Below, in pieces: positions 35,650-45,035 of a stretch of 64,000 nucleotides of DNA (positions are counted from its first letter, which is position 1; each line of letters begins with the position of its first letter). The stretch is from Flavobacteriaceae bacterium F08102 (GTDB taxonomy: Bacteria > Bacteroidota > Bacteroidia > Flavobacteriales > Flavobacteriaceae): NCBI GenBank assembly GCA_023015935.1, contig JALKAY010000001.1:558874-622873 (forward strand), read 5' to 3'. Made by a program: the position numbers and the translations under genes. The notes under the pieces were generated by a model, which was not told the DNA's origin, searched no databases, and was given only the letters and a program-made list of their open reading frames with translations.

Positions 35650-36040
35650 GGGGACGACTGGTTTTGACAGCAAGGTCAGTTGAAATGTAAGCATGTCGAG
35701 CAATGAAATAGTACTCGTAAAACTCAATTTCACCATTTAAACGGCGAGAATAACTACGCTTTAGCTGCATAATCTGAATTTTAGTAAGATTAGGCCACGT
35801 CTCTACAAGGTAGAGAAGCTTTATGTCTCCTGAAAGCGTTTGCTAACCGCGTTCAATTTAGAGGCATCGTAAAAGTCAGCATAGAATTCCTAGGCTTCGA
35901 TAGGAATTTGAAATTAAAGAAGCTAAGCTAAAAGTGGACGGTTTTCGGTCAGCTTTTAGACGAAAATTAAACGAAAACTAAACATGTAGAAAGCACTTCT
36001 GCTGCTTGTTTGGACGAGGGTTCGAGTCCCTCCGTCTCCA
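35650..36040 (+). ncRNA. ssrA: Transfer-messenger RNA (tmRNA)
   Basis: tmRNA rescues ribosomes stalled on broken mRNAs and tags the nascent peptide for degradation. The 5' end GGGGACG (35650-35656) pairs with the 3' end CGTCTCC (36033-36039), with one G-U pair, to form the acceptor stem; discriminator A is at 36040. The 3' T-arm GGGTTCGAGTCCC is at 36018-36030. CCA is not encoded and must be added. The tag reading frame runs from GGC at 35743 to TAA at 35770-35772 and encodes GENNYALAA, the tag I associate with flavobacteria. The 3' end is the attachment site of the integrative element that follows. Confidence 0.96.
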
Positions 36041-36041
36041 C
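36028..36041 (+). repeat. attL: attL: 14-bp direct repeat within the ssrA 3' end
   Basis: CCCTCCGTCTCCAC at the 3' end of ssrA is repeated exactly at 45022-45035 beyond the integrase gene. Flanking bases differ on both sides, so the core identity is 14 bp. This marks the left boundary of the integrated element. Confidence 0.9.
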
Positions 36042-36043
36042 TT

Positions 36044-36085
36044 AATCCTCTGTAACCAATTGCTTTACAGAGGATTATTTTTTTT
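36044..36085 (+). terminator. Element-borne terminator directly after ssrA
   Basis: AATCCTCTGTAA (36044-36055) pairs with TTACAGAGGATT (36065-36076), followed by ATTTTTTTT. It lies 3 bases inside the element and now terminates ssrA, whose native terminator appears to be at 45066 beyond attR. Confidence 0.9.
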
Positions 36086-36104
36086 GGTGTCAATTTAGGT
36101 GTCA
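36086..36104 (+). repeat. Paired GGTGTCA repeats, left end (candidate integrase arm sites)
   Basis: GGTGTCA at 36086-36092 and 36098-36104, joined by ATTTA, giving a 12-bp period. The same pair with the same spacing and orientation occurs at 44883-44901 near the other end. Confidence 0.6.
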
Positions 36105-36159
36105 ATAATGTGCTTAATAGGAAGTCTTTTACTTTTAATTCTCAAGTTTTTTTTATTAA

Positions 36160-36969
36160 TTGAAGTTTCAAATCACGGAAATTAGAAAACAGAAAATGCA
36201 AGATCCATTGTATTATTCTTTATTGGATATAACAAAAGAGGTTCGCCGATTACAAAACGTAATTAAGCCTTCGGTAATGGTCGAGATTCAGCGGTCAATA
36301 AATAGTGTTAGTGATTTTGGAAGAAATAAACACTTAATTGCTTTTGCTGAACAACTCAGAGCAAATTATCTTCCATTGAATTTTTTAATTCCTATAGATT
36401 TTACAACTAAACTAAATAAAAGGAATGAAGAAATTTCTATGGTTTTAAAAATTCTATCTACTTCAATTAATAATCTATCTGGTTTAAATTATGATCTACA
36501 TACATTAATTCAGGATGAAATTGAGGATGAGTCTAAATTTAGTATAATTGATAATTCTAAAAATATTATTAAAAGTATTTACGAAGATCATAGTTTACTT
36601 GACATTATAGAACCTCGAGAATTTGAAGAGGTTGTAGCCGAGCTTTTGCAGAATAAAGGTTTTGAAGTTAGCCTAACAGGTAGAACAAGAGATGGTGGCT
36701 ATGACATATTGGCTATGACTCATCAGGGTGACATTCCATTTAAAATGTTAGTAGAATGTAAACGACATAAAAAAAAAATTGGTGTAGAGGTAATTAGAAG
36801 TTTTTGTGATGTGATTCATCGTGAAAAGGCAAATAAAGGAATCATATTTACGACTTCATATTTTTCAAAACCGTCTCAAGTGAGAAAGGAAGAAAAGGGC
36901 GCGTTATTAGATTTACGAAATAGAAATGACTTATTAAAATGGATAATACAGTATTCAATTAAAAACTAA
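36160..36969 (+). CDS. Mrr-like restriction endonuclease-fold nuclease
   Basis: The 269-residue protein has a helical N-terminal part (about 1-145, unrecognised) and a C-terminal Mrr_cat-type domain. The domain begins EPREFEEVVAELLQNKGFEV and has the PD-(D/E)xK core D178-GGY-D182 and E199-C-K201, then RSFCDVIHREKANKGIIFTTS. Such nucleases cut DNA, in Mrr and type IV systems often modified or foreign DNA. The first codon in frame is TTG at 36160; an ATG at 36196 (residue 13) is a plausible alternative. It is the first of three closely spaced plus-strand genes at the ssrA end of the element and is probably cargo with a defence role. Its specificity is unknown. Confidence 0.8.
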   Translation: MKFQITEIRKQKMQDPLYYSLLDITKEVRRLQNVIKPSVMVEIQRSINSVSDFGRNKHLIAFAEQLRANYLPLNFLIPIDFTTKLNKRNEEISMVLKILSTSINNLSGLNYDLHTLIQDEIEDESKFSIIDNSKNIIKSIYEDHSLLDIIEPREFEEVVAELLQNKGFEVSLTGRTRDGGYDILAMTHQGDIPFKMLVECKRHKKKIGVEVIRSFCDVIHREKANKGIIFTTSYFSKPSQVRKEEKGALLDLRNRNDLLKWIIQYSIKN

Positions 36970-36982
36970 AGGATAATTAAGA

Positions 36983-37327
36983 ATGAAAGTAAAATTAACA
37001 CTTCATGAAAAAAGAGCTCTTTTTAATGCTGTTGCAATTAGAAAAAAGAATCATTCAGAATCAGATATCATATCTAAAAAACATAAAGAAGCGTTAAAAA
37101 AGGTGGACGATAGTTTAATGAATCAGCCCTTTATAATTGAAGGATTCGCGAAGGCGCTATTTAAAGGGTTGATAAATAGCGAAATAAAAAACCTTTTGTC
37201 TAATTATCAATTAGAATATTTGGCACCAATTGAAATAGATAGACTGTTTGTTTTAGCAGATACTCATAAATTTAGAAGGGGGTTGTGGAACAAATTGGAG
37301 AAAGAAGTTCCAAAAAGTTTATTTTAA
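36983..37327 (+). CDS. Unrecognised 114-residue protein in the nuclease cargo operon
   Basis: I do not recognise this protein. It is Lys/Glu-rich and predicted mainly helical, with no signal peptide, membrane segment or obvious catalytic motif. It starts KVKLTLHEKRALFNAV and has a C-terminal segment YLAPIEIDRLFVLADTHKFRRGLW. It begins 13 bases after the nuclease stop, with AAAGGA just upstream as a possible ribosome binding site, and lies 14 bases before the next gene, so it is co-transcribed with both. It could be a partner, regulator or immunity protein of the nuclease, which is inference from position only. Confidence 0.65.
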   Translation: MKVKLTLHEKRALFNAVAIRKKNHSESDIISKKHKEALKKVDDSLMNQPFIIEGFAKALFKGLINSEIKNLLSNYQLEYLAPIEIDRLFVLADTHKFRRGLWNKLEKEVPKSLF

Positions 37328-37341
37328 AATATTATTAAACT

Positions 37342-37947
37342 ATGTCTTTTTCATCCAAATATTATACAAGCTATTCAGAAGTCCCTTATTTAAGCTCGGA
37401 AGAAATCCTCAAAGGAGATTTATTATGGTTAAGAAAAAGTTATGATGGTGAAGGTGGTGAAATACCTGAAGGGGATAAGGAAAAATTAATCAAAGTCTAT
37501 AACGAAATAATTAGAGAAAGAAATGAAAATATAAAGGGACTAGATACATTTAGTTTTATTCCAGAATTATCAAAATTACTTTCATTATCAAGTAGTTATT
37601 TTCTAGCCAAAAGTACTTTTCCTTTTTTTAAAACTGTCCAGTTGGAAAGTAAATATTGGAATAAATTCATTCGTGTTTATGAAGGGTATGATATGAAATA
37701 TCATAAAAAAATATTGACAATAGAAGAGCGTGAGAAATATTTTACATGGCTTGAAAGGCAAATTTATAATTTGGGGTTAGAACTACTTAAATCAGTTAAT
37801 AAAAACAGGTTTTTTCTAGTTAAGAAATACAATGAAGAGAAAATTTTAAGTTTGAAACAAACAGTCGAATCTGTTCTTTTTAATCCAAATTTGACCTCCC
37901 TTAAAGAGTTCGATAATTATTGTATAAAGTCAAAAGATAATTGTTAA
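37342..37947 (+). CDS. Unrecognised 201-residue protein, third gene of the cargo operon
   Basis: No family is recognised. The protein is soluble-looking and rich in Lys, Tyr, Phe and Leu. It has a helical central part (GLDTFSFIPELSKLLSLSSSYFLAKS split by short polar turns, about 73-95) and YFTWLERQIYNLGLELLKSVNK near 133-154. No signal peptide or membrane segment is clear. It follows the 114-residue gene by 14 bases. Its stop codon overlaps by 4 bases the stop codon of the convergent minus-strand gene (37944), so no terminator separates the cargo from the replication module. Confidence 0.65.
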   Translation: MSFSSKYYTSYSEVPYLSSEEILKGDLLWLRKSYDGEGGEIPEGDKEKLIKVYNEIIRERNENIKGLDTFSFIPELSKLLSLSSSYFLAKSTFPFFKTVQLESKYWNKFIRVYEGYDMKYHKKILTIEEREKYFTWLERQIYNLGLELLKSVNKNRFFLVKKYNEEKILSLKQTVESVLFNPNLTSLKEFDNYCIKSKDNC

Positions 37948-38588
37948 AAACGGTTAAAATAGATGCCTATTTTTTTGCAATTTTCTATTAGAACTTGGTT
38001 GCGCATATCGTCAAAATGATTCATTTGTTTACGCAATTTGTATAACTTCATAAAGTCTTTAGTAGGCTTTCCTTTATAGAGCGGTTTTCTGTGTTTGGTA
38101 AAAAGCTCATTTTCTAATTTATCAACTTGTTTTCTTAAATCATGGTAACGATTATTATAATAATCTCGTTTAGCACATTGCTGAGTAGTATAGTAAATTC
38201 TTACATTATGATTTTCTAAATACCAATCGCGATGTACATACTTTGGGTATCTGTATGCCGAATATAAAATTCTTGCGCGTTTGGCACTTTCAGGACAAAC
38301 AAAATATAAAACTTCACCTTTTCCTAAATTGCTTGGTACAGTAGTTATGTGTATTTTATAGTCGTAGTCGGTTTTTTCACCTTCTATATCGGTTACGGTA
38401 TAATATAGTCTTAACCACTTTTCAGATTTAGTACATTTACATTCAAATCCTGCTGAGCTGTTATCAGTCCATTCAATTTGCCCGCGAGTTATAAAGCCTT
38501 TACGGATATAATTATTTCTTAATAACCAATTAATATTTAATTTTCGACATTCACTTGTAGACCACGCGCCTGTATTTGCTTTTCCCAT
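37944..38588 (-). CDS. Unrecognised 214-residue element protein
   Basis: No function is recognised. It starts GKANTGAWSTSECRKLNINWLLRNNYIRKG, which reads like a short DNA- or RNA-binding head. A central beta-rich part contains LYFVCPESAKRARILYSAYRYPKYVHRDWY, reminiscent of a zinc-ribbon-like replication accessory domain but lacking a clear set of four ligands. A basic helical or coiled-coil tail (about 140-214, RYHDLRKQVDKLENELF) follows. It is the last gene of the minus-strand int-to-primase series, 27 bases after the primase-like gene, so a role in element maintenance is more likely than cargo. Confidence 0.65.
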   Translation of the reverse strand: MGKANTGAWSTSECRKLNINWLLRNNYIRKGFITRGQIEWTDNSSAGFECKCTKSEKWLRLYYTVTDIEGEKTDYDYKIHITTVPSNLGKGEVLYFVCPESAKRARILYSAYRYPKYVHRDWYLENHNVRIYYTTQQCAKRDYYNNRYHDLRKQVDKLENELFTKHRKPLYKGKPTKDFMKLYKLRKQMNHFDDMRNQVLIENCKKIGIYFNRF

Positions 38589-38615
38589 TTTCCTATTTTT
38601 TAATTCAGATTAACC

Positions 38616-39671
38616 TTAATCTTTAAGAGAACTTACATTTATTGGTAAATTGTTTTCATCTGTTAATTCGAAAACATCTATTAACTTCAATAAGTTTACA
38701 TTCTTTTTCATCATCCTTTTAATTTTTGCTTCTGTTATTGATTTAACCCGAGAAAAGTTTGTTGATGTGTTTGTAATTGTTGTCACTGTTTTGGGTTTTT
38801 TACTAGTTCTAATTTGTTCTAAATAAATATCTGCTAAATCAGTTCCATTTACATGGTTTGAATCTTCTATAAACCTACTAACTTTTATTTTAAAACCATA
38901 GTCATTTAATTCCATTGCCTTGCTCTGCCAGTCGTTATATTCCCCTTTGTCTGGGAAGGCAATTATATTATAACTTATAATTGGTTTAAGCATTTCATAT
39001 TTAAAACCGTGTTTGCTTCCAGTAGCTAGCCAAACATAATTAGGTTTAAATAAGCTCATGATAACTGCCGTTTTTTCACTTTCTACAATTCCTATGGTTT
39101 GGCTGGCTTTTTTATTGATGAGATGTAAACCGAACAAGCATTGTTTTAGATTAAAGTTGTTTAATTTTAATAAGCTTCTTACGCTAGTTATAAAAGCATT
39201 TCCAGAAGCATTTTTAAGCCGTTTGCCAGTTTTAATATTATACAACATTACCTTACCATGTCTTACGTTTTTATTATTGTCTATTTGCCAGAATACAGTT
39301 GCTCCATCCCAAAATTTTGATGTTCCAATTAAATATTTTAAAATGACTGTTTTAACCTCATCTATGGTAAAGATGTTTTTCAGGAATTGTACAAAATTAT
39401 TGTGTTTGTAATTCCGCCCACAATGAGAAACTAATGTGTAAGAGTGATAACTTATTGGTGGTGGTGTTGTATATTTGACTTCATAGGTTTTAATATAATT
39501 TCCTTTTGGCGCTGTGTGATAACCACATTTGTTTTCTCGATCGCATCGTCCAATCTCATTGGGTAAATATTCTTTTTTTTCATTATCAAAATATCTTACA
39601 AAAGTTTTTTTATTGCAATTTGGACAATGATACTTTTTACTGCTTTTATCTAAATTATATCTGTATTTCAT
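38616..39671 (-). CDS. Primase-like protein with zinc ribbon and Toprim-like region (DUF6371 type)
   Basis: The 351-residue protein starts with a zinc ribbon (C16, C19, C43, C49; YHCPNCNKKTFVRYF). A middle segment has FWDGATVFWQIDNNKNVRHGKVMLY (about 119-143), and a Toprim-like core has IGIVESEKTAVIMS (about 193-206), WLATGSKHGF and IAFPDKGEYNDW (about 236-247), with the acidic residues E and D expected in Toprim nucleotidyl-transfer sites. This layout matches CHC2-type primases and the DUF6371 family of Bacteroidetes mobile elements. It probably primes replication of the element. The iteron-like array starts 20 bases upstream of its ATG. Confidence 0.78.
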   Translation of the reverse strand: MKYRYNLDKSSKKYHCPNCNKKTFVRYFDNEKKEYLPNEIGRCDRENKCGYHTAPKGNYIKTYEVKYTTPPPISYHSYTLVSHCGRNYKHNNFVQFLKNIFTIDEVKTVILKYLIGTSKFWDGATVFWQIDNNKNVRHGKVMLYNIKTGKRLKNASGNAFITSVRSLLKLNNFNLKQCLFGLHLINKKASQTIGIVESEKTAVIMSLFKPNYVWLATGSKHGFKYEMLKPIISYNIIAFPDKGEYNDWQSKAMELNDYGFKIKVSRFIEDSNHVNGTDLADIYLEQIRTSKKPKTVTTITNTSTNFSRVKSITEAKIKRMMKKNVNLLKLIDVFELTDENNLPINVSSLKD

Positions 39672-39690
39672 TATATTTTTCTTTAGAGGA

Positions 39691-39859
39691 TGGCAATGTT
39701 GACAAAGTTGACAAACATCAATAATAGTAAAGATTTCAGGCGTTTTTTACCTGTCAGACATTTGGCAATGCTGGCAAAGTGCCGACAATCCATATTGTTG
39801 TTAATGTGTTGAAAAATAATGAATTAAACTAGGATTTGCCATCTTTGTCGTCTTTGCCA
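39691..39859. repeat. Iteron-like array: nine 9-bp units in three triplets; candidate element origin
   Basis: Triplet 1, plus strand: TGGCAATGT (39691-39699), TGACAAAGT (39700-39708), TGACAAACA (39709-39717). Triplet 2, plus strand: TGGCAATGC (39763-39771), TGGCAAAGT (39772-39780), and the diverged GCCGACAAT (39781-39789). Triplet 3, read on the minus strand: TGGCAAAGA (39859-39851), CGACAAAGA (39850-39842), TGGCAAATC (39841-39833). Triplet starts are 72 and 70 bp apart. An AT-rich stretch (39790-39832) separates triplets 2 and 3. The array fills the gap between the primase-like and helicase-like genes. Iteron and origin function is inferred. Confidence 0.75.
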
Positions 39860-39863
39860 CATC

Positions 39864-41165
39864 TTATGAAAATTTCTTTTTATAATGACCTGCTTTTAGT
39901 TCTTTTGAAGTTTGAAAACTGTTAAATATCTTCTCATTTTTTAGAAATCTGTCCGCAGTTCTTATGCTAAAACCCATTTCATCAAATAACGGTAATACAT
40001 CGGCTCTTTTAAACTCATAAGGTAATGCCTTGTATAAATCCAATTGAGCAGGTGTTAGGCCTTGTAAATAATTTTTAGACAGTATTCTGTCGTGCACTTT
40101 TAAAGCGTTATATCTAAAGTATTCTATCAGTCTAATAGCTTTGTGGATGCTTTCGTTTGAAATGTTTGTTTGAAAATGTCCAGTAGTCGCCTGTTGTGTC
40201 ATTTCAATTACCAATGCCAAACGCCACACATAAGTTTCAAGTTTAGCTTGTATTGATGCTTCCAGTTGATCATTGAAACACTCTATCACTTTTTTATGTT
40301 GCCATGCTTTATAAATATCAATGTGTGAAATTGTTGTTTTAATTACCATTTGTTGAATATCTAAAAGATTATTTATTAACTTATGATAGTTATTTAAATG
40401 CCTTTGGTCAATATCTAGACCAGTAAATAAATTTGGTTCTATGTTGTCGGGATATACGAATAGAAATCTATCTAAAAAACCGTCTTCATTTCGATTGTTT
40501 TTTGCGATGCTTTTTAGTATTTCAGGTTGCATTCCACCTAAAATATTTACGTTGGTATGCTCTATCCTAATGGGTTCTTTCGTGACCCTATCAACCGTTA
40601 AACCACTTCCATTGAAAAGGTCGAGGTACATTTGTTGATCTCCGCCTTTTTTGTACTGGTCAAATGAATTAATCCACCTCATCAATTCATCTTGAAATAT
40701 CAAAACTCCTTTTTCATTATATTGTAGCGTTTCTGCTAACTTTTCAGGAGTGAAGTCTTTTAGAATGAATTTAGAGTATTTTGGTCGTTTGCCTTTACCC
40801 TCGTTTTTCTCATATTCGTTATACGCCTGTTTGTAATCTTCAAATGATAGCGTATCTCTTTGTTCAATCGGTGTTTTAGTAAACTCTAGGGGTTGGGTTT
40901 TTCCTGTACCACGTCTGCCAATTATTGTGATCCAAAAAATAGGTTTAGCGGTATAGCTTCCATTGTAGAGGTTTACTGTATTTCCGATAGCCGTTGCGCA
41001 AATTGACAAGATCCCTGCACTTAAAAACTCTTTATTAAATCCTTTGGTTTTATGTGCGTTATCAATAAGCTGTTGAACTTCGGTCGGGAATATATCAAAG
41101 GGAAATTGTGATGTTTCCGTATGCATTTCATTATCAATGATTGCGCTTAATCTGTCTAACTCCAT
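39864..41165 (-). CDS. DUF3987-family P-loop protein (helicase/primase-associated)
   Basis: The 433-residue protein matches the DUF3987 pattern: FPFDIFPTEVQQLIDNAHKTKGFNKEFLSAGILS near the N-terminus (about 21-54), a Walker A GRRGTGKT (83-90), Walker B-like VLIFQDEL (about 154-161), and a downstream sensor region NVNILGGMQPEIL (about 208-220). A C-terminal HTH-like tail follows (about 370-430). Such proteins are common in Bacteroidetes integrative elements, where they are thought to act with primase as replicative helicases. It overlaps the upstream 102-residue gene at one base (41165) and precedes the iteron-like array and the primase gene. Confidence 0.82.
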   Translation of the reverse strand: MELDRLSAIIDNEMHTETSQFPFDIFPTEVQQLIDNAHKTKGFNKEFLSAGILSICATAIGNTVNLYNGSYTAKPIFWITIIGRRGTGKTQPLEFTKTPIEQRDTLSFEDYKQAYNEYEKNEGKGKRPKYSKFILKDFTPEKLAETLQYNEKGVLIFQDELMRWINSFDQYKKGGDQQMYLDLFNGSGLTVDRVTKEPIRIEHTNVNILGGMQPEILKSIAKNNRNEDGFLDRFLFVYPDNIEPNLFTGLDIDQRHLNNYHKLINNLLDIQQMVIKTTISHIDIYKAWQHKKVIECFNDQLEASIQAKLETYVWRLALVIEMTQQATTGHFQTNISNESIHKAIRLIEYFRYNALKVHDRILSKNYLQGLTPAQLDLYKALPYEFKRADVLPLFDEMGFSIRTADRFLKNEKIFNSFQTSKELKAGHYKKKFS

Positions 41166-41473
41166 TAGAAAAACAATTTATATTGGTTAGACTTCGGGAA
41201 TAAATCAGGGTTGGTGGTTAAAAAATTCGCTTCATGATTAGTAATTATACATCGATCTGTTTTAACCTTATCAATTTTATTGGCTTTACGCCATTTTGCT
41301 ACATAACGGCAAATATTAGCCCTTAATATTCCAGTTTCAACACTTACCATTAACATTGTCTTAGGGCGATCATAAAATGCCTTAAAAACAATTTTCATTT
41401 GATCTTCAAATTTTTTACCTTTACGTTCTTCGCCAAAAGAATTTTTAAGGCTGTGTTTACTTTGTGTATTCAT
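41165..41473 (-). CDS. Small HTH-type DNA-binding protein of the element
   Basis: The 102-residue protein is basic, with a probable winged-helix or HTH segment (MLMVSVETGILRANICRYVAKWRKANKI, about 41-68) preceded by a disordered charged N-terminus. It reads as a DNA-binding regulator or replication-initiator accessory protein. Its stop overlaps the start of the DUF3987 gene and it begins 5 bases after the excisionase-like gene, so the three are tightly coupled. I do not recognise a named family. It is a candidate for binding the iteron-like array, which is inference. Confidence 0.7.
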   Translation of the reverse strand: MNTQSKHSLKNSFGEERKGKKFEDQMKIVFKAFYDRPKTMLMVSVETGILRANICRYVAKWRKANKIDKVKTDRCIITNHEANFLTTNPDLFPKSNQYKLFF

Positions 41474-41478
41474 AGCCT

Positions 41479-41766
41479 TTATCTTTTGTATTTAATTGAT
41501 TTTACTTCCCCGTTAGAGTCGAACAGTTCTGAATGTTGAACGTAGTATTTGTGTCCAAATTTTTCAGCTTTTAAATTACCTTTTTTAATTTGATTTCGAA
41601 CGGTTAAGGGTATAACTCCGTATAATTCGGCAACCTCTTTTATTGAATAGCGTTTTTTTGATAGATCTTCTTTAGTTTGTTGCGAATTGATTTTTTTTAC
41701 TACCTCATTTGCAATGTCGGCAACAAGAAGATCAATGTTTCTCGTACTTAATACTGTGTTGTTCAT
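41479..41766 (-). CDS. Excisionase-like helix-turn-helix protein
   Basis: The 95-residue protein has a MerR/excisionase-type HTH (YSIKEVAELYGVIPLTVRNQIKKGNLKAEKFG, about 42-73) with a following wing (KYYVQHSELF), as in AlpA/Xis-like helix_turn_helix_17 proteins. The N-terminal 40 residues are charged and helical. Such proteins act as excision directionality factors or as transcriptional switches of integrative elements. In the element it lies between the integrase side and the replication genes, as alpA does in many satellites. Its target sites are unknown; the paired GGTGTCA sites or the adjacent 120-bp gap are the obvious places to look. Confidence 0.82.
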   Translation of the reverse strand: MNNTVLSTRNIDLLVADIANEVVKKINSQQTKEDLSKKRYSIKEVAELYGVIPLTVRNQIKKGNLKAEKFGHKYYVQHSELFDSNGEVKSIKYKR

Positions 41767-41887
41767 TTTGATTAAATTTTTAATTTCGTCAAAGAAACAA
41801 CGCGATTGAAATCGGTAGTAATTAGGGTAATTACCCAGAATTACCTTGTTGAAAATGAGGAGGTTAGTGTTTTATGTTAGAATGAGG

Positions 41888-43606
41888 TTAGGGGTATTTT
41901 TCTATGTGTTTATTTACTTCGGGATCAAAATTTGATAAATTACGTATTGTTTTTTTATAAGATTTTCCAAAAATTTTACGAAAATTATCCTTATTACTAA
42001 TATCTATTTCAATAAATTCTCGGTAAAACATTTGAGAGCTTATTGCGGGGTAGTGTGTCTTTGCAAATTGCTGAATCTCTTTTCTAGGGTATTTATCATC
42101 TAGATTACGTTCAAACATTGGTTCTTTATCCATTTCAATTAAAATCCAATGATATAATGCGTAGAATTTTGCTGAGATTTTGCCTTTGGCTTTTGTTTGT
42201 TGCGTTAGTTTTTGTGTTAATAACTCTTCAATATACGGTTTAAGAAAAATGTGTCTAAAATAGGTTTGCACTACCTTAGAACCATTCCCATTGTTGAGAT
42301 AAGTAGTGTTCTCCTTATAATAATTACCATCTAACACTCGCAATAGTACAATTTCATTCTCGTATTCACGATTATAATGATATTTATAAATATTTAGTCC
42401 TTTGATTGATATTAATTTTTTCGCATTTTTTTCAAGGTCATTGAGGTGTTTTAATTCAGCTTTTAAAAAAGTATCTCTGAGTTCGGATTTTAATTGACTC
42501 TTAAATTCATTTTGGTTGATGAATTTATTAAACTCCAATTCTGAATTATATTTTAAAAACCAATAGGTGAATTCAGGTTCTTTATCGCTATTTTTAAAAT
42601 AATGTTCATAGACAGGATATTGAATTTTTAAAGGAGACTTAAACTCTTTGTTACTAAAAATTGTTTCTAGAACCGTGTCATGATATTCAATAAAAAACCC
42701 CTCATCCTTTATTCTCATTTCATTAGTGATTACCTTGTATTTATCATAATACTCTCCTTTGATTATTCTTAGGTAATTCAATCTTTGAGAGATAGAACGG
42801 TGTTTGTTTAACTCCTCAATGATATGGGTGTGATCTAAATAGCCAAGAGGTTTAATTCTATTTAGTAGATTGTTTTCTTTTTGTGTTACCTCTTTTAAGT
42901 ATTTGATTATAAAAATGTTTGCATATCGTTTTAATTCTCTAAATCTCCTTTCAGCTTCTTTTTTTGTAATGCCAAATTTTTTCAAGAAAGCAATATTGTT
43001 ATATTCAGAAAGAATAAAGATTTGAATGTCGGTATTTTCCAAGCTTTCTATAAAATTATTTAATATTTTCTTTTTAAGCACTGGTAATTTTATTAACTCT
43101 AATTTAAGGGTTATGCTTTTTACGAAACTCTTGGCGTATTTTGAGGGTTTTTCTTTTTGATCTGTTAAAACGAACTTAGTAAAATCGTCAATTTCCTCTT
43201 GAACAATCGACAATTGTTTAATTAGGGTTGTATCCAAGATGTTATGAGCATAATACTTTTCATCTAGGCTATTATCTTGAATTTTTTTAAGAAATTCAAT
43301 TTCAATCTTTTTCAGTTTTATTTCAATCTCTGAGAGGGGATAATGATTGGCAGCAACAATATCGGTGGAATTTTTTGGGTGAGTAGTGGGAATTGATTGA
43401 TGACCTTTTAAAAATCCATTTTGAATTTCTAAATCACTTAAATATTTATTTTGGTATAGTGATAAATTAGGCGTTAAAGAAGTGTCTAAATATTGAGAGT
43501 ATAATTTTTCTTTTAAATAGTCATCTTTTTGGAAAAGATCTAAATACGGAATTTTTCGAACCCTTCTTTTGGTAAGGTCTTTATTGAATTGCTCTCTTTT
43601 TCCCAT
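41888..43606 (-). CDS. Unrecognised 572-residue element protein next to the integrase
   Basis: No family is recognised with confidence. The protein is highly charged and mostly helical, without signal peptide or membrane segment. A C-terminal part (about 480-572) has AKFYALYHWILIEMDKEPMFE, FAKTHYPAISSQMFYREF and FGKSYKKTIRNLSNFDPEV, suggesting a DNA-binding terminal helical domain. It starts 3 bases after the integrase stop, so it is probably co-expressed with integrase. RteC-like control proteins of Bacteroides elements hold a comparable position, but I cannot show a match. Roles in excision control or interference with a helper phage are open. Confidence 0.65.
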   Translation of the reverse strand: MGKREQFNKDLTKRRVRKIPYLDLFQKDDYLKEKLYSQYLDTSLTPNLSLYQNKYLSDLEIQNGFLKGHQSIPTTHPKNSTDIVAANHYPLSEIEIKLKKIEIEFLKKIQDNSLDEKYYAHNILDTTLIKQLSIVQEEIDDFTKFVLTDQKEKPSKYAKSFVKSITLKLELIKLPVLKKKILNNFIESLENTDIQIFILSEYNNIAFLKKFGITKKEAERRFRELKRYANIFIIKYLKEVTQKENNLLNRIKPLGYLDHTHIIEELNKHRSISQRLNYLRIIKGEYYDKYKVITNEMRIKDEGFFIEYHDTVLETIFSNKEFKSPLKIQYPVYEHYFKNSDKEPEFTYWFLKYNSELEFNKFINQNEFKSQLKSELRDTFLKAELKHLNDLEKNAKKLISIKGLNIYKYHYNREYENEIVLLRVLDGNYYKENTTYLNNGNGSKVVQTYFRHIFLKPYIEELLTQKLTQQTKAKGKISAKFYALYHWILIEMDKEPMFERNLDDKYPRKEIQQFAKTHYPAISSQMFYREFIEIDISNKDNFRKIFGKSYKKTIRNLSNFDPEVNKHIEKYP

Positions 43607-43609
43607 TGA

Positions 43610-44875
43610 TTAATTTACTTTTTTGAGTGGAATTTGGATGTTAAAAGTGTCTTTAATGGCTTCTTTTTTCTCATCATTAGAAACTTGATAATATTGATTC
43701 AGTGTTTTCATGTCGCTATGTCCTGAAATTTGAGAAATTAATTTATCACTTTTACCGTTTCTTTTCATCATGGTTATAAATGTTCTCCTAGCTGAATGAC
43801 TTGCTATACGTTTATAAAATGGCATTTCTTCACGTATTACTTCTTTCCCTCGCGTGGTGGTTTTCTCCACAAGATATGTGTATCCTGCCAGTTTGAAAAT
43901 CTCTTTCAAATAGTCGTTATATTTTTGATTTGCAATCAGCGGGAATTTATATTCGTACTTATGCAATAAATAAAGTGCAATTTCATTAAGTGGTATTTCT
44001 CGTGTCTCTTTACGGGTGCCTTTTTCTTCCTTTAAAAGCAAGGTGTCTTTAATAATATTACTTTTAGAAATAAGTTTTAATTCGCCAAATCTAACACCTG
44101 TTACACAAGCAAAGACAAAAATATCCCTTACTCGTTCAAGTCGTTTTGTGTCGTAATTCTGGGTTAATAGTTTTTCAATATCTTCTTTGGTTAAAGCGAC
44201 TTGATTCGTTATTACTTTAGGTTTCTTTTTAAAACTCATAAAGTCTGTTTTATAAGTGTATCCTTTATTTAATGACCAAAATAAAAATGTTTTTAATAAC
44301 CCAACGTTACGAGAAAAGGTATTATTAATGTGCCCTAAATCGTTCATGCAAAAGTTTGTAAATTCAGTATAAAAATTATCATTAATCGAATTGAAGTTAA
44401 GTTTATAATTCTTTACCTCTTCGAATGATAGAAGAATGTTTTTAATATTACTATATCTTTTAATTGTAGCTTTAGACCATTCGTTGTTCTTTTTTTTATA
44501 TTCTATGAAATCATCGTATGCCTCAAAAAACTTATTCTTTTTAATAGAGACTTTTTTAAACTCTTTATCAAATTCAGTTCTAATTTTTTCAATCGTAATT
44601 TCTTGATGAGTGTTTTTGTATTGGTTAGTTATGGTAAGGAAGAAATTTGAATATCTATCCAATTGCATTTTAATAGATCGGTGATTGTCCGCTTTATGGC
44701 CACGTCCATTGAAGTTATTTGGAAGTCTATTTTTAAAATCCCATTCGGAAGGTCGTATGGTTTCTCCCGTTGAATAGACAAATCTTTTGCCTTCATTTTT
44801 AAAATAGGCTTTAAGATAAATAAGAGTTTTGTTGTCTTTGTTTTTTACGTTTTTTAGGTTGAAAGTACACTTCAT
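43610..44875 (-). CDS. int: Tyrosine site-specific integrase
   Basis: The 421-residue tyrosine recombinase has an N-terminal arm-binding domain (YSTGETIRPSEWDFKNRLP, about 34-52), a SAM-like core-binding domain (about 110-215) and a catalytic domain with R262 (TGVRFGEL), H360-SA-R363, H386 (ISGHSDMK) and the nucleophile Y395 or Y396. It is full length and intact. It catalyses insertion at and excision from the 14-bp att core in ssrA. It is the rightmost gene, 147 bases from attR, and its start codon lies 8 bases from the paired GGTGTCA repeats, which may let it autoregulate. The attachment-site choice (ssrA 3' end) is a classic one for this family. Confidence 0.95.
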   Translation of the reverse strand: MKCTFNLKNVKNKDNKTLIYLKAYFKNEGKRFVYSTGETIRPSEWDFKNRLPNNFNGRGHKADNHRSIKMQLDRYSNFFLTITNQYKNTHQEITIEKIRTEFDKEFKKVSIKKNKFFEAYDDFIEYKKKNNEWSKATIKRYSNIKNILLSFEEVKNYKLNFNSINDNFYTEFTNFCMNDLGHINNTFSRNVGLLKTFLFWSLNKGYTYKTDFMSFKKKPKVITNQVALTKEDIEKLLTQNYDTKRLERVRDIFVFACVTGVRFGELKLISKSNIIKDTLLLKEEKGTRKETREIPLNEIALYLLHKYEYKFPLIANQKYNDYLKEIFKLAGYTYLVEKTTTRGKEVIREEMPFYKRIASHSARRTFITMMKRNGKSDKLISQISGHSDMKTLNQYYQVSNDEKKEAIKDTFNIQIPLKKVN

Positions 44876-44882
44876 TTTTATG

Positions 44883-44901
44883 GGTGTCAGTTTAGGTGTC
44901 A
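44883..44901 (+). repeat. Paired GGTGTCA repeats, right end (candidate integrase arm sites)
   Basis: GGTGTCA at 44883-44889 and 44895-44901, joined by GTTTA, giving a 12-bp period. The pair is in the same orientation as the one at 36086-36104 and lies just upstream of the integrase start codon at 44875. Confidence 0.6.
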
Positions 44902-45021
44902 GTAAAATTATCGTTTTATATTAAATTTGAATTATATTTAGAATAAGAGTTATTAACATTTACAGGGCTTTTAGCGTTGTTTTATCGTGACGAATGATAA
45001 TTATAAATAAGAGGTTAAATA

Positions 45022-45035
45022 CCCTCCGTCTCCAC
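45022..45035 (+). repeat. attR: attR: 14-bp direct repeat
   Basis: CCCTCCGTCTCCAC, an exact copy of the ssrA 3' terminal sequence at 36028-36041, marking the right end of the element. The original sequence downstream of ssrA resumes here. Confidence 0.9.

Follow-up and report, generated by a model that had tools for sequence, protein, structure and literature searches.

An integrative element at ssrA

The DNA analysed here is a stretch of 64,000 nucleotides from Flavobacteriaceae bacterium F08102 (the window). It contains a 9.0-kb integrative element (36042-45035) located at the 3' end of ssrA and bounded by a 14-bp repeat, the limits being set by an exact repeat of the tmRNA 3' end. A site-specific integrase, an excisionase-like HTH protein and att repeats, as known from mobilizable elements, are all present, and the integrative character proposed in an earlier note on this DNA is upheld. 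The following features were identified:

35650-36041: tmRNA gene
36028-36041, no strand: attL, 14-bp repeat inside the 3' end of the tmRNA gene, exact repeat of 45022-45035
36077-36108, plus strand: direct repeat inside the left end, possible integrase arm sites (putative role)
36160-37947, plus strand: cargo, an Mrr-type nuclease and two unassigned genes
36160-36969, plus strand: Mrr-type (type IV-like) nuclease, first cargo gene (PF04471, E 1.3e-25; PADLOC type IV restriction models)
37944-38588, minus strand: 214-residue protein, downstream of the primase (weak PHROGs match, E 0.002)
38616-39671, minus strand: zinc-ribbon and DUF6371 primase (PF19898, E 1.3e-57; PF21957, E 3.1e-24)
39864-41165, minus strand: DUF3987 AAA+ helicase-like protein (PF13148, E 5e-45)
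39876-40073, minus strand: predicted C-terminal winged helix of the DUF3987 protein, residues 365-430 (structure model)
41165-41473, minus strand: 102-residue protein (no family match in Pfam, NCBIfam, PHROGs or PADLOC)
41479-41766, minus strand: HTH_17/excisionase-like protein (PF12728, E 1.7e-6; TIGR01764 below its cut-off)
41888-43606, minus strand: 572-residue protein (no match in Pfam, NCBIfam, PHROGs or PADLOC)
43610-44875, minus strand: tyrosine recombinase, the integrase (PF00589, E 1.2e-13)
44874-44905, plus strand: direct repeat inside the right end, possible integrase arm sites (putative role)
45022-45035, no strand: attR, 14-bp repeat, exact copy of the tmRNA 3' end

The direct repeats inside the two ends are 88% identical and of a tandem GTGTCA type. 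The Mrr-type nuclease and the two genes that follow it are possibly defence cargo. For the 214-residue protein no match was found in Pfam, NCBIfam or PADLOC at E 0.01; related proteins are present in several other elements. Searches of Pfam, NCBIfam and PHROGs recognised no relaxase family among the ten proteins of the element, the 214- and 572-residue proteins being without family, and no packaging or phage-interference family among the same ten, several of which are without family.

A clean empty integration site was not found; the right flank is unmatched beside ssrA in six loci of the same genus. In two of these six (L185 and L187; loci are referred to by L numbers) a second copy of the ssrA 14-mer was observed 157-166 bp past the tmRNA end. 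These second copies resemble remnants of lost elements or minimal inserts, and other insertions in the genus seem to use the ssrA 3' end too.

A nine-unit array between the helicase and primase genes

The 192-bp gap between the genes at 38616-39671 and 39864-41165 carries nine YGRCAAW units, detected by reading of the sequence and by a motif scan. They span 169 bp and are grouped as three clusters of three:

39691-39717, plus strand: iteron cluster 1, units at 39691, 39700 and 39709 (step 9)
39763-39789, plus strand: iteron cluster 2, units at 39763, 39772 and 39783 (steps 9 and 11)
39792-39827, no strand: AT-rich stretch, 83% A+T, candidate melting site (putative role)
39835-39859, minus strand: iteron cluster 3, inverted, units at 39835, 39844 and 39853 (step 9)

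The earlier note had described three triplets, two on the plus strand and one inverted, and the reading, the scan and shuffled controls all confirm them. The 9-bp spacing given there holds for most units and fails at the third unit of the second triplet, where the step is 11; the inverted triplet was placed at 39833-39859, of which the end is right and the start should be 39835. Along the direction of the genes (minus strand) the clusters read forward, inverted, inverted. The AT-rich stretch lies between the facing clusters 2 and 3 and is the most AT-rich among the 36-bp stretches sampled in the gap.

In 300 first-order shuffled 64-kb windows the number of YGRCAAW units per 170 bp reached at most 5 (in two of the 300), against 9 in the real sequence. 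No triplet occurred in any of the shuffles, and the real 64-kb window has these three and no others. The motif was defined after the array had been seen, so a motif-free test was added on the gap only (any 7-mer with at most one mismatch, in 7-11-bp steps). The gap scored 7, a value reached by none of 200 shuffles, whose top score was 6 (in two of the 200). The tandem-repeat search with shuffled controls proposed in the earlier note thus places both the triplets and the motif-free score beyond every shuffle. TRF picks up the first triplet alone (39694-39715, score 37), and the gap sequence has one match within its own genome.

The forward-inverted-inverted order recurs in five relatives (L073, L074, L125, L126 and L177), in which the cluster start-to-start distance ranges from about 28 to 90 bp. 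The equal phasing of 70-72 bp that had been claimed for the triplets does not extend to these relatives, and helical phasing was ruled out by their variable cluster spacing.

Predicted folds of the flanking proteins

A structural model of the primase built from 37 sequences (pLDDT 91) matches the cores of T7 gp4 primase and DnaG, with a best Foldseek E of 2.2e-6 and, in VIA-align 2, Z up to 14.4 over 188 residues at 3.2 A. The zinc-ribbon cysteines are kept across the primase alignment, which also contains ESEKTA, FPD and DLAD segments that we take to be TOPRIM-like motifs.

The DUF3987 protein was modelled from 29 sequences (pLDDT 88). Among its best 50 Foldseek rows, 49 are MCM-containing by entry title and one is ORC (best E 9e-7; TM-scores under 0.5), and the best 50 rows in VIA-align 2 are all MCM-containing (best Z 17.3 over 267 residues at 3.5 A). 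Both searches thus find the MCM AAA+ core fold in the predicted model; families missing from the structure-match lists were given no weight as evidence. An assignment of the protein as RecA-like had been considered and was overturned by these matches. The C-terminus of the model forms a helix-strand-helix-helix-strand-strand winged helix (residues 365-430; pLDDT of the block 68-89). The DUF3987 protein is therefore predicted to have an MCM-like AAA+ fold with a C-terminal winged helix.

The AAA+ fold (Z about 17) and the C-terminal winged helix are shared, as predictions, with the MCM helicases; the protein differs from these in its length of 432 residues, an identity of 10-15% and the lack of a Pfam MCM match. 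MCM sequence models gave no match, DUF3987 being the only Pfam family at E 0.01, and no MCM N-terminal domain was seen, most of the listed MCM chains aligning from residue about 280-525, past that domain. We do not assign the protein to the MCM family. The primase-like and helicase-like flanks described in the earlier note are thus borne out as a DnaG/T7-like primase and an AAA+ protein whose predicted fold is MCM-like. DUF3987 had been predicted by Kazlauskas et al. to be a helicase of mobile elements (PMC5862659).

Relatives of the element

The DUF6371 primase, or its domain, was detected in 35 of the 249 genomes sampled from the same family, in 14 of 395 from the order, in 41 of 395 from the class and in 53 of 395 from the phylum; these samples overlap, and each count includes the window's own genome. 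It also occurs in 11 plasmid and 8 phage records. A scan of a viral contig collection gave no confirmed relative, and a scan of a genome contig collection gave one, L002, with an 8-bp-step array of four exact copies. Terminal repeats, a sign of a circular form, were absent from the phage-collection relatives (L068-L071 and L217) and from three plasmid records. L069 looks like a mobilizable element and not a phage, since MobC- and relaxase-like proteins were seen in it by eye.

Short loci (L001, L003-L062) were swapped for longer ones where these were fetched, and some short or partial loci (e.g., L025, L057 and L058) are outside the final sets. L064 and L065 were dropped because their primase is interrupted, and L175 because it is a duplicate; L141 and L181 have less than 200 bp upstream and do not enter the counts. 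The loci are not independent lineages.

In the long loci a recurrent gene order was observed: integrase, excisionase-like protein, in some a protein like the 102-residue one, helicase/ATPase and primase, with parts missing or unrecognised in some loci. The window's element shares with mobilizable elements of the NBU/Tn4555 kind a helicase/ATPase gene followed by a DUF6371 primase gene. Types were assigned to the gene upstream of the primase by patterns, giving, for 118 loci, 43 DUF3987, 37 AAA_25/RecA-like, 18 SF3, 16 other and 4 with none. A Pfam check of ten loci agrees: AAA_25 was found in L002, L063, L075, L117, L123 and L143, and D5_N/DUF5906 in L088, L122 and L128, while the upstream gene of L150 matched no Pfam family. 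The AAA_25 ATPases of L063, L075 and L117 have a C-terminal HTH match in Pfam.

A shared array design upstream of DUF6371 primases

Arrays were compared across loci as exact 5-mers in 7-10-bp steps. This test replaced a best-6-mer over-representation score, which was too noisy (14 of 71 above the 99% shuffle level). At least four copies occur just upstream of the primase in 64 of the 118 DUF6371 loci, where about 0.9 would be expected. In the first set at least three copies were found in 53 of 70 loci (1.0 expected) and at least four in 50 of 70 (0.5 expected). In the second set, fetched after the test was first used, the counts were 20 of 48 (0.8 expected) and 14 of 48 (0.4 expected). A coding control had at least three copies in 2 of 213 windows. 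Strong lag-9 runs were present upstream of the primase in 19 of 64 loci against 0.6 expected (coding control, 1 of 64), and lags 7 and 8 were likewise raised.

The window's array itself scores only 2 in the exact-5-mer test, because its words alternate between GGCAA and GACAA. For the DUF3987 type, at least four copies were counted automatically in 29 of 43 loci, or 30 of 43 with the window set positive by hand, and at least three, automatically, in 32 of 43. Arrays of at least four copies are also found in 30 of 37 AAA_25 loci and 5 of 18 SF3 loci, and in none of the 16 loci with another upstream gene or the 4 with no helicase. The 13 DUF3987 genes without a primase within the fetched 1.5 kb had at least four copies downstream in two cases; we give this contrast no weight, since in the same small test only two of five DUF3987 genes with a primase had them.

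The iteron-like array noted between the primase and helicase genes is thus common in elements with a DUF6371 primase. Absence of the repeats from homologous elements had been named as evidence against an origin; some loci do lack them, and most (the 53 of 70 and 20 of 48 above) have at least three exact copies. The steps in arrays of at least four copies are 7, 8, 9 and 10 bp in 40, 55, 104 and 13 cases. The words vary: TGGCAA is used in the window and its near relatives L073 and L074, and TCGTAC, GTAACA, GTGAAC, GGGACA, CTGCA, GTTTC/GTTGC and more in other loci. As far as the sequences go, the design of the array is conserved and its words are not.

Both strands are used in 55 of the 64 arrays of at least four copies, and the inverted arms could form an RNA or single-stranded DNA hairpin, an attenuator or a single-strand priming site. 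A long stem is possible in some loci (e.g., L006), 12 of the 64 array regions fold with z below -3 (median z -1.98), and 14 arm pairs match at all compared spacer bases, only 2-4 bases each. The spacers of inverted arms, however, match at 125 of 208 bases in the best register, a choice that favours a match, little better than the 35 of 66 of direct neighbours. Compared with shuffles, the gain in folding of the window gap is modest (z -1.5 and -1.6), and the gap has no Rfam match at gathering score. We regard a hairpin function as very improbable.

When 263-bp windows were slid along the long loci, arrays of at least four copies were found in 66 of 130 windows in the 250-bp bin directly upstream of the primase and in 15 of 123 in the next bin upstream; the remaining bins had 0 to 8 of 119, with slightly raised counts at 1.5-2.25 kb upstream. 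Counted from the aligned primase start, the median position of the last unit is 36 bp upstream. This position would also suit an operator through which the helicase, the excisionase-like HTH protein or the 102-residue protein controls transcription of the primase and the genes downstream. Further short arrays upstream of xis or helicase genes in some loci, with the same word in L112, and a short palindromic array upstream of the excisionase-like gene in the window point the same way. In seven AAA_25-type loci (L063, L111, L143, L144, L146, L151 and L152), however, there is almost no gap between the primase gene and the gene before it, whose coding end contains the array; this leaves little room for a separate promoter. 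Inverted clusters over 170 bp also exceed the usual operator. A scan for sigma-70-type promoters found no excess (18 against 16.2 expected), although this consensus fits Bacteroidota poorly. An operator is in our judgement an unlikely account of the array.

The array lies inside the coding end of the ATPase gene in several loci, including the Tn4555-type L063. In one family of the phylum sample, L143, L150 and relatives (L144-L157), some ATPase coding ends or starts were seen to carry three-codon repeats, e.g., VMQVMQ and VHHVHH, and 9-bp repeats may therefore be built into the protein.

Which protein reads the words

The similarity of the array words was compared with that of the proteins encoded beside them. 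The HTH segments in the 28- and 20-locus tests below were placed by eye, and both tests exclude some near-duplicates and any locus in which no word was called. In 28 loci whose helicase has a trihelical C-terminal HTH, word similarity correlated with similarity of the 25-residue HTH (r=0.53). With primase and ATPase held fixed the correlation was 0.34 (p=0.0002); that of word and primase, with the others held fixed, was 0.04 (p=0.31). Judged from these comparisons, the word in the 28 trihelical loci tracks the helicase HTH rather than the primase. In the trihelical table the helix SEGxxR goes with TCGTA, xMKVxR with GTAACA, and GTVNKY with GTGAAC/GTTCAC. A pattern-extracted version of this table was discarded, as it held wrong segments in many rows.

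For the winged type, that of the window, the word tracks HTH and primase about equally, and both weakly. In 20 loci the word correlated with the HTH at 0.19 (p=0.038) and with the primase at 0.27 (p=0.023), and a pattern-extracted table of 12 rows gave 0.34 (p 0.07) and 0.30 (p 0.06). A crude comparison of the last 130 residues in 29 DUF3987 loci speaks against the helicase, with 0.28 for the primase (p=0.004) and -0.005 for the HTH. The Mantel sets were thinned lightly, 63 of 65 being kept in the last-130-residue comparison.

Individual loci show both the link and an exception to it. The word of L123, mostly in 7-bp steps, is nearly that of L095, L096 and L099; the ATPase of L123 is AAA_25, whereas those of the other three are DUF3987. 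The nearest primase to that of L123 belongs to L122, a locus with a different word. The C-terminal 130 residues of L123 are only weakly similar to those of L099 (0.07), and the likeness of the helices was judged by eye. L112 and L179, in turn, have near-identical recognition helices and different called words.

We take the helicase C-terminus as the reader, for the window itself only tentatively, because of the trihelical result and the precedent of SaPI and Cch2. It is a likelier reader than the 95-, 102- or 214-residue proteins.

The array as a probable replication origin

That many related elements have an array of this design in the same position suggests that such elements have a replication start site of their own. 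As in iteron origins, tandem short repeats lie beside the gene of a putative initiator, the helicase. We consider it probable that the array serves the integrative element as its origin of replication after excision; we infer that the helicase is the initiator, binding to the array and opening the DNA there for replication of the element. Excision of the element from the chromosome would come first. The C-terminal winged helix of the DUF3987 protein, encoded just upstream, would then bind the 9-bp-step units of the facing clusters, and AAA+ rings would open the AT-rich DNA that separates these clusters. Synthesis on the exposed strands would be primed by the DUF6371 primase, whose gene lies just downstream, and the excised circle would be kept or amplified until reintegration or transfer.

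This arrangement resembles that of the staphylococcal islands. The helicases SaPI Rep and SCCmec Cch2 are described as reading short repeats just downstream of their own genes via C-terminal domains (PMC7581432), and PICI origins as two iteron sets around an AT-rich region (PMC6092414). With SaPI and PICI the window's element shares integrase, excisionase, primase and initiator-helicase genes, and, immediately 3' of the initiator gene, an AT-rich stretch flanked by two sets of short iterons (PMC7581432, PMC6092414): clusters 2 and 3 face each other across the 83% A+T stretch, 3' of the helicase gene. In SaPI/PICI the C-terminal domain of the helicase recognises the origin (PMC7581432, PMC6092414); its counterpart here would be the winged helix. 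Unlike these islands, the window has a third cluster beyond the facing pair, helicase and primase of other families, a Bacteroidota host and a 7-9-bp step; its array precedes the primase gene, and families for packaging or phage interference were not recognised. The helicase matches DUF3987 and PHROGs helicase families and the primase matches DUF6371; these are general models, none of them PICI-specific. At the putative origin of the SCCmec Cch2/CCPol-MP system, too, a helicase C-terminal domain reads direct repeats beside its gene (PMC7581432), and the CCPol-MP primase can start on the repeats in vitro (PMC7581432). That system differs in its AAGTG words, its primase type and its setting in a staphylococcal cassette.

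The Tn4555-type element CP103138 (L063) has the integrase, excisionase-like protein, AAA_25 ATPase and DUF6371 primase in order (PMC13183296), as here, and an inverted GGGACA array in the 3' end of its ATPase gene. Its ATPase is AAA_25 and not DUF3987, and Tn4555/NBU1 elements differ in carrying a relaxase. The array could be a site acting in cis where the helicase loads for excision or conjugal transfer, and not a vegetative origin. Excision of NBU1 is reported to depend on a large region made up of oriT, two genes and a portion of the relaxase gene (PMC5704250), and in three plasmid-borne relatives mobilization or relaxase genes follow soon after the primase. Yet the array is present in the window's element, among whose ten proteins no relaxase family was recognised, and it sits between helicase and primase, not beside a relaxase. 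An excision or transfer site has in our view only a small chance of being the explanation, and an origin is the preferred one.

For a broader reading, taken as a single whole, we regard the balance as even. Under it, the arrays would represent an undescribed, phylum-wide class of origin, with a format of facing iteron arrays in 7-9-bp steps tied to the DUF6371 primase. Unrelated motors (the MCM-like DUF3987, AAA_25 and perhaps SF3) would share the array via exchangeable C-terminal HTH domains, and Tn4555/NBU-like elements, including some that are named non-replicating, would be replicons when excised.

A helicase-read iteron origin of an integrative element is of a kind already known; new here are the step, the phylum of the hosts, the protein families involved and the swapping of one helicase type for another. 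In the literature searched, mostly non-subscription papers, we found no description of arrays of this design and no report of an origin or iterons in NBU1 or Tn4555, and DUF6371 appears there only as a Tn4555 gene name (PMC13183296). In a 2017 review the section devoted to integrative and mobilizable elements after excision is entitled 'An Unexplored World', and their replication is said there never to have been studied (PMC5704250); replication of SGI1 has been reported since (PMC7433901, PMC7826253). The array provides a precise place to test replication of excised elements in Bacteroidota, and the same module is also present in a mobilizable transposon that bears a beta-lactamase. The correspondence of repeat words with helicase C-termini offers a natural recognition code, and a likely role emerges for DUF3987, that of an MCM-like initiator helicase.

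Other observations

The record CP103138 is a 10,057-bp circle deposited as a plasmid, with a Tn4555-type gene set. Since its listed genes are those of a Tn4555-type element, it may be an excised circle captured by assembly.

The short palindromic array of the window, around GGTAATTACC, is located at 41808-41849, between the genes for the 95- and 572-residue proteins; it is possibly the operator of the excisionase-like gene, upstream of which it lies. Short arrays were seen near the same place, upstream of xis or helicase genes, in some relatives. The second array of L112 precedes the helicase gene, about 1.4-1.5 kb before the primase, and has the CGGAC word of the main array.
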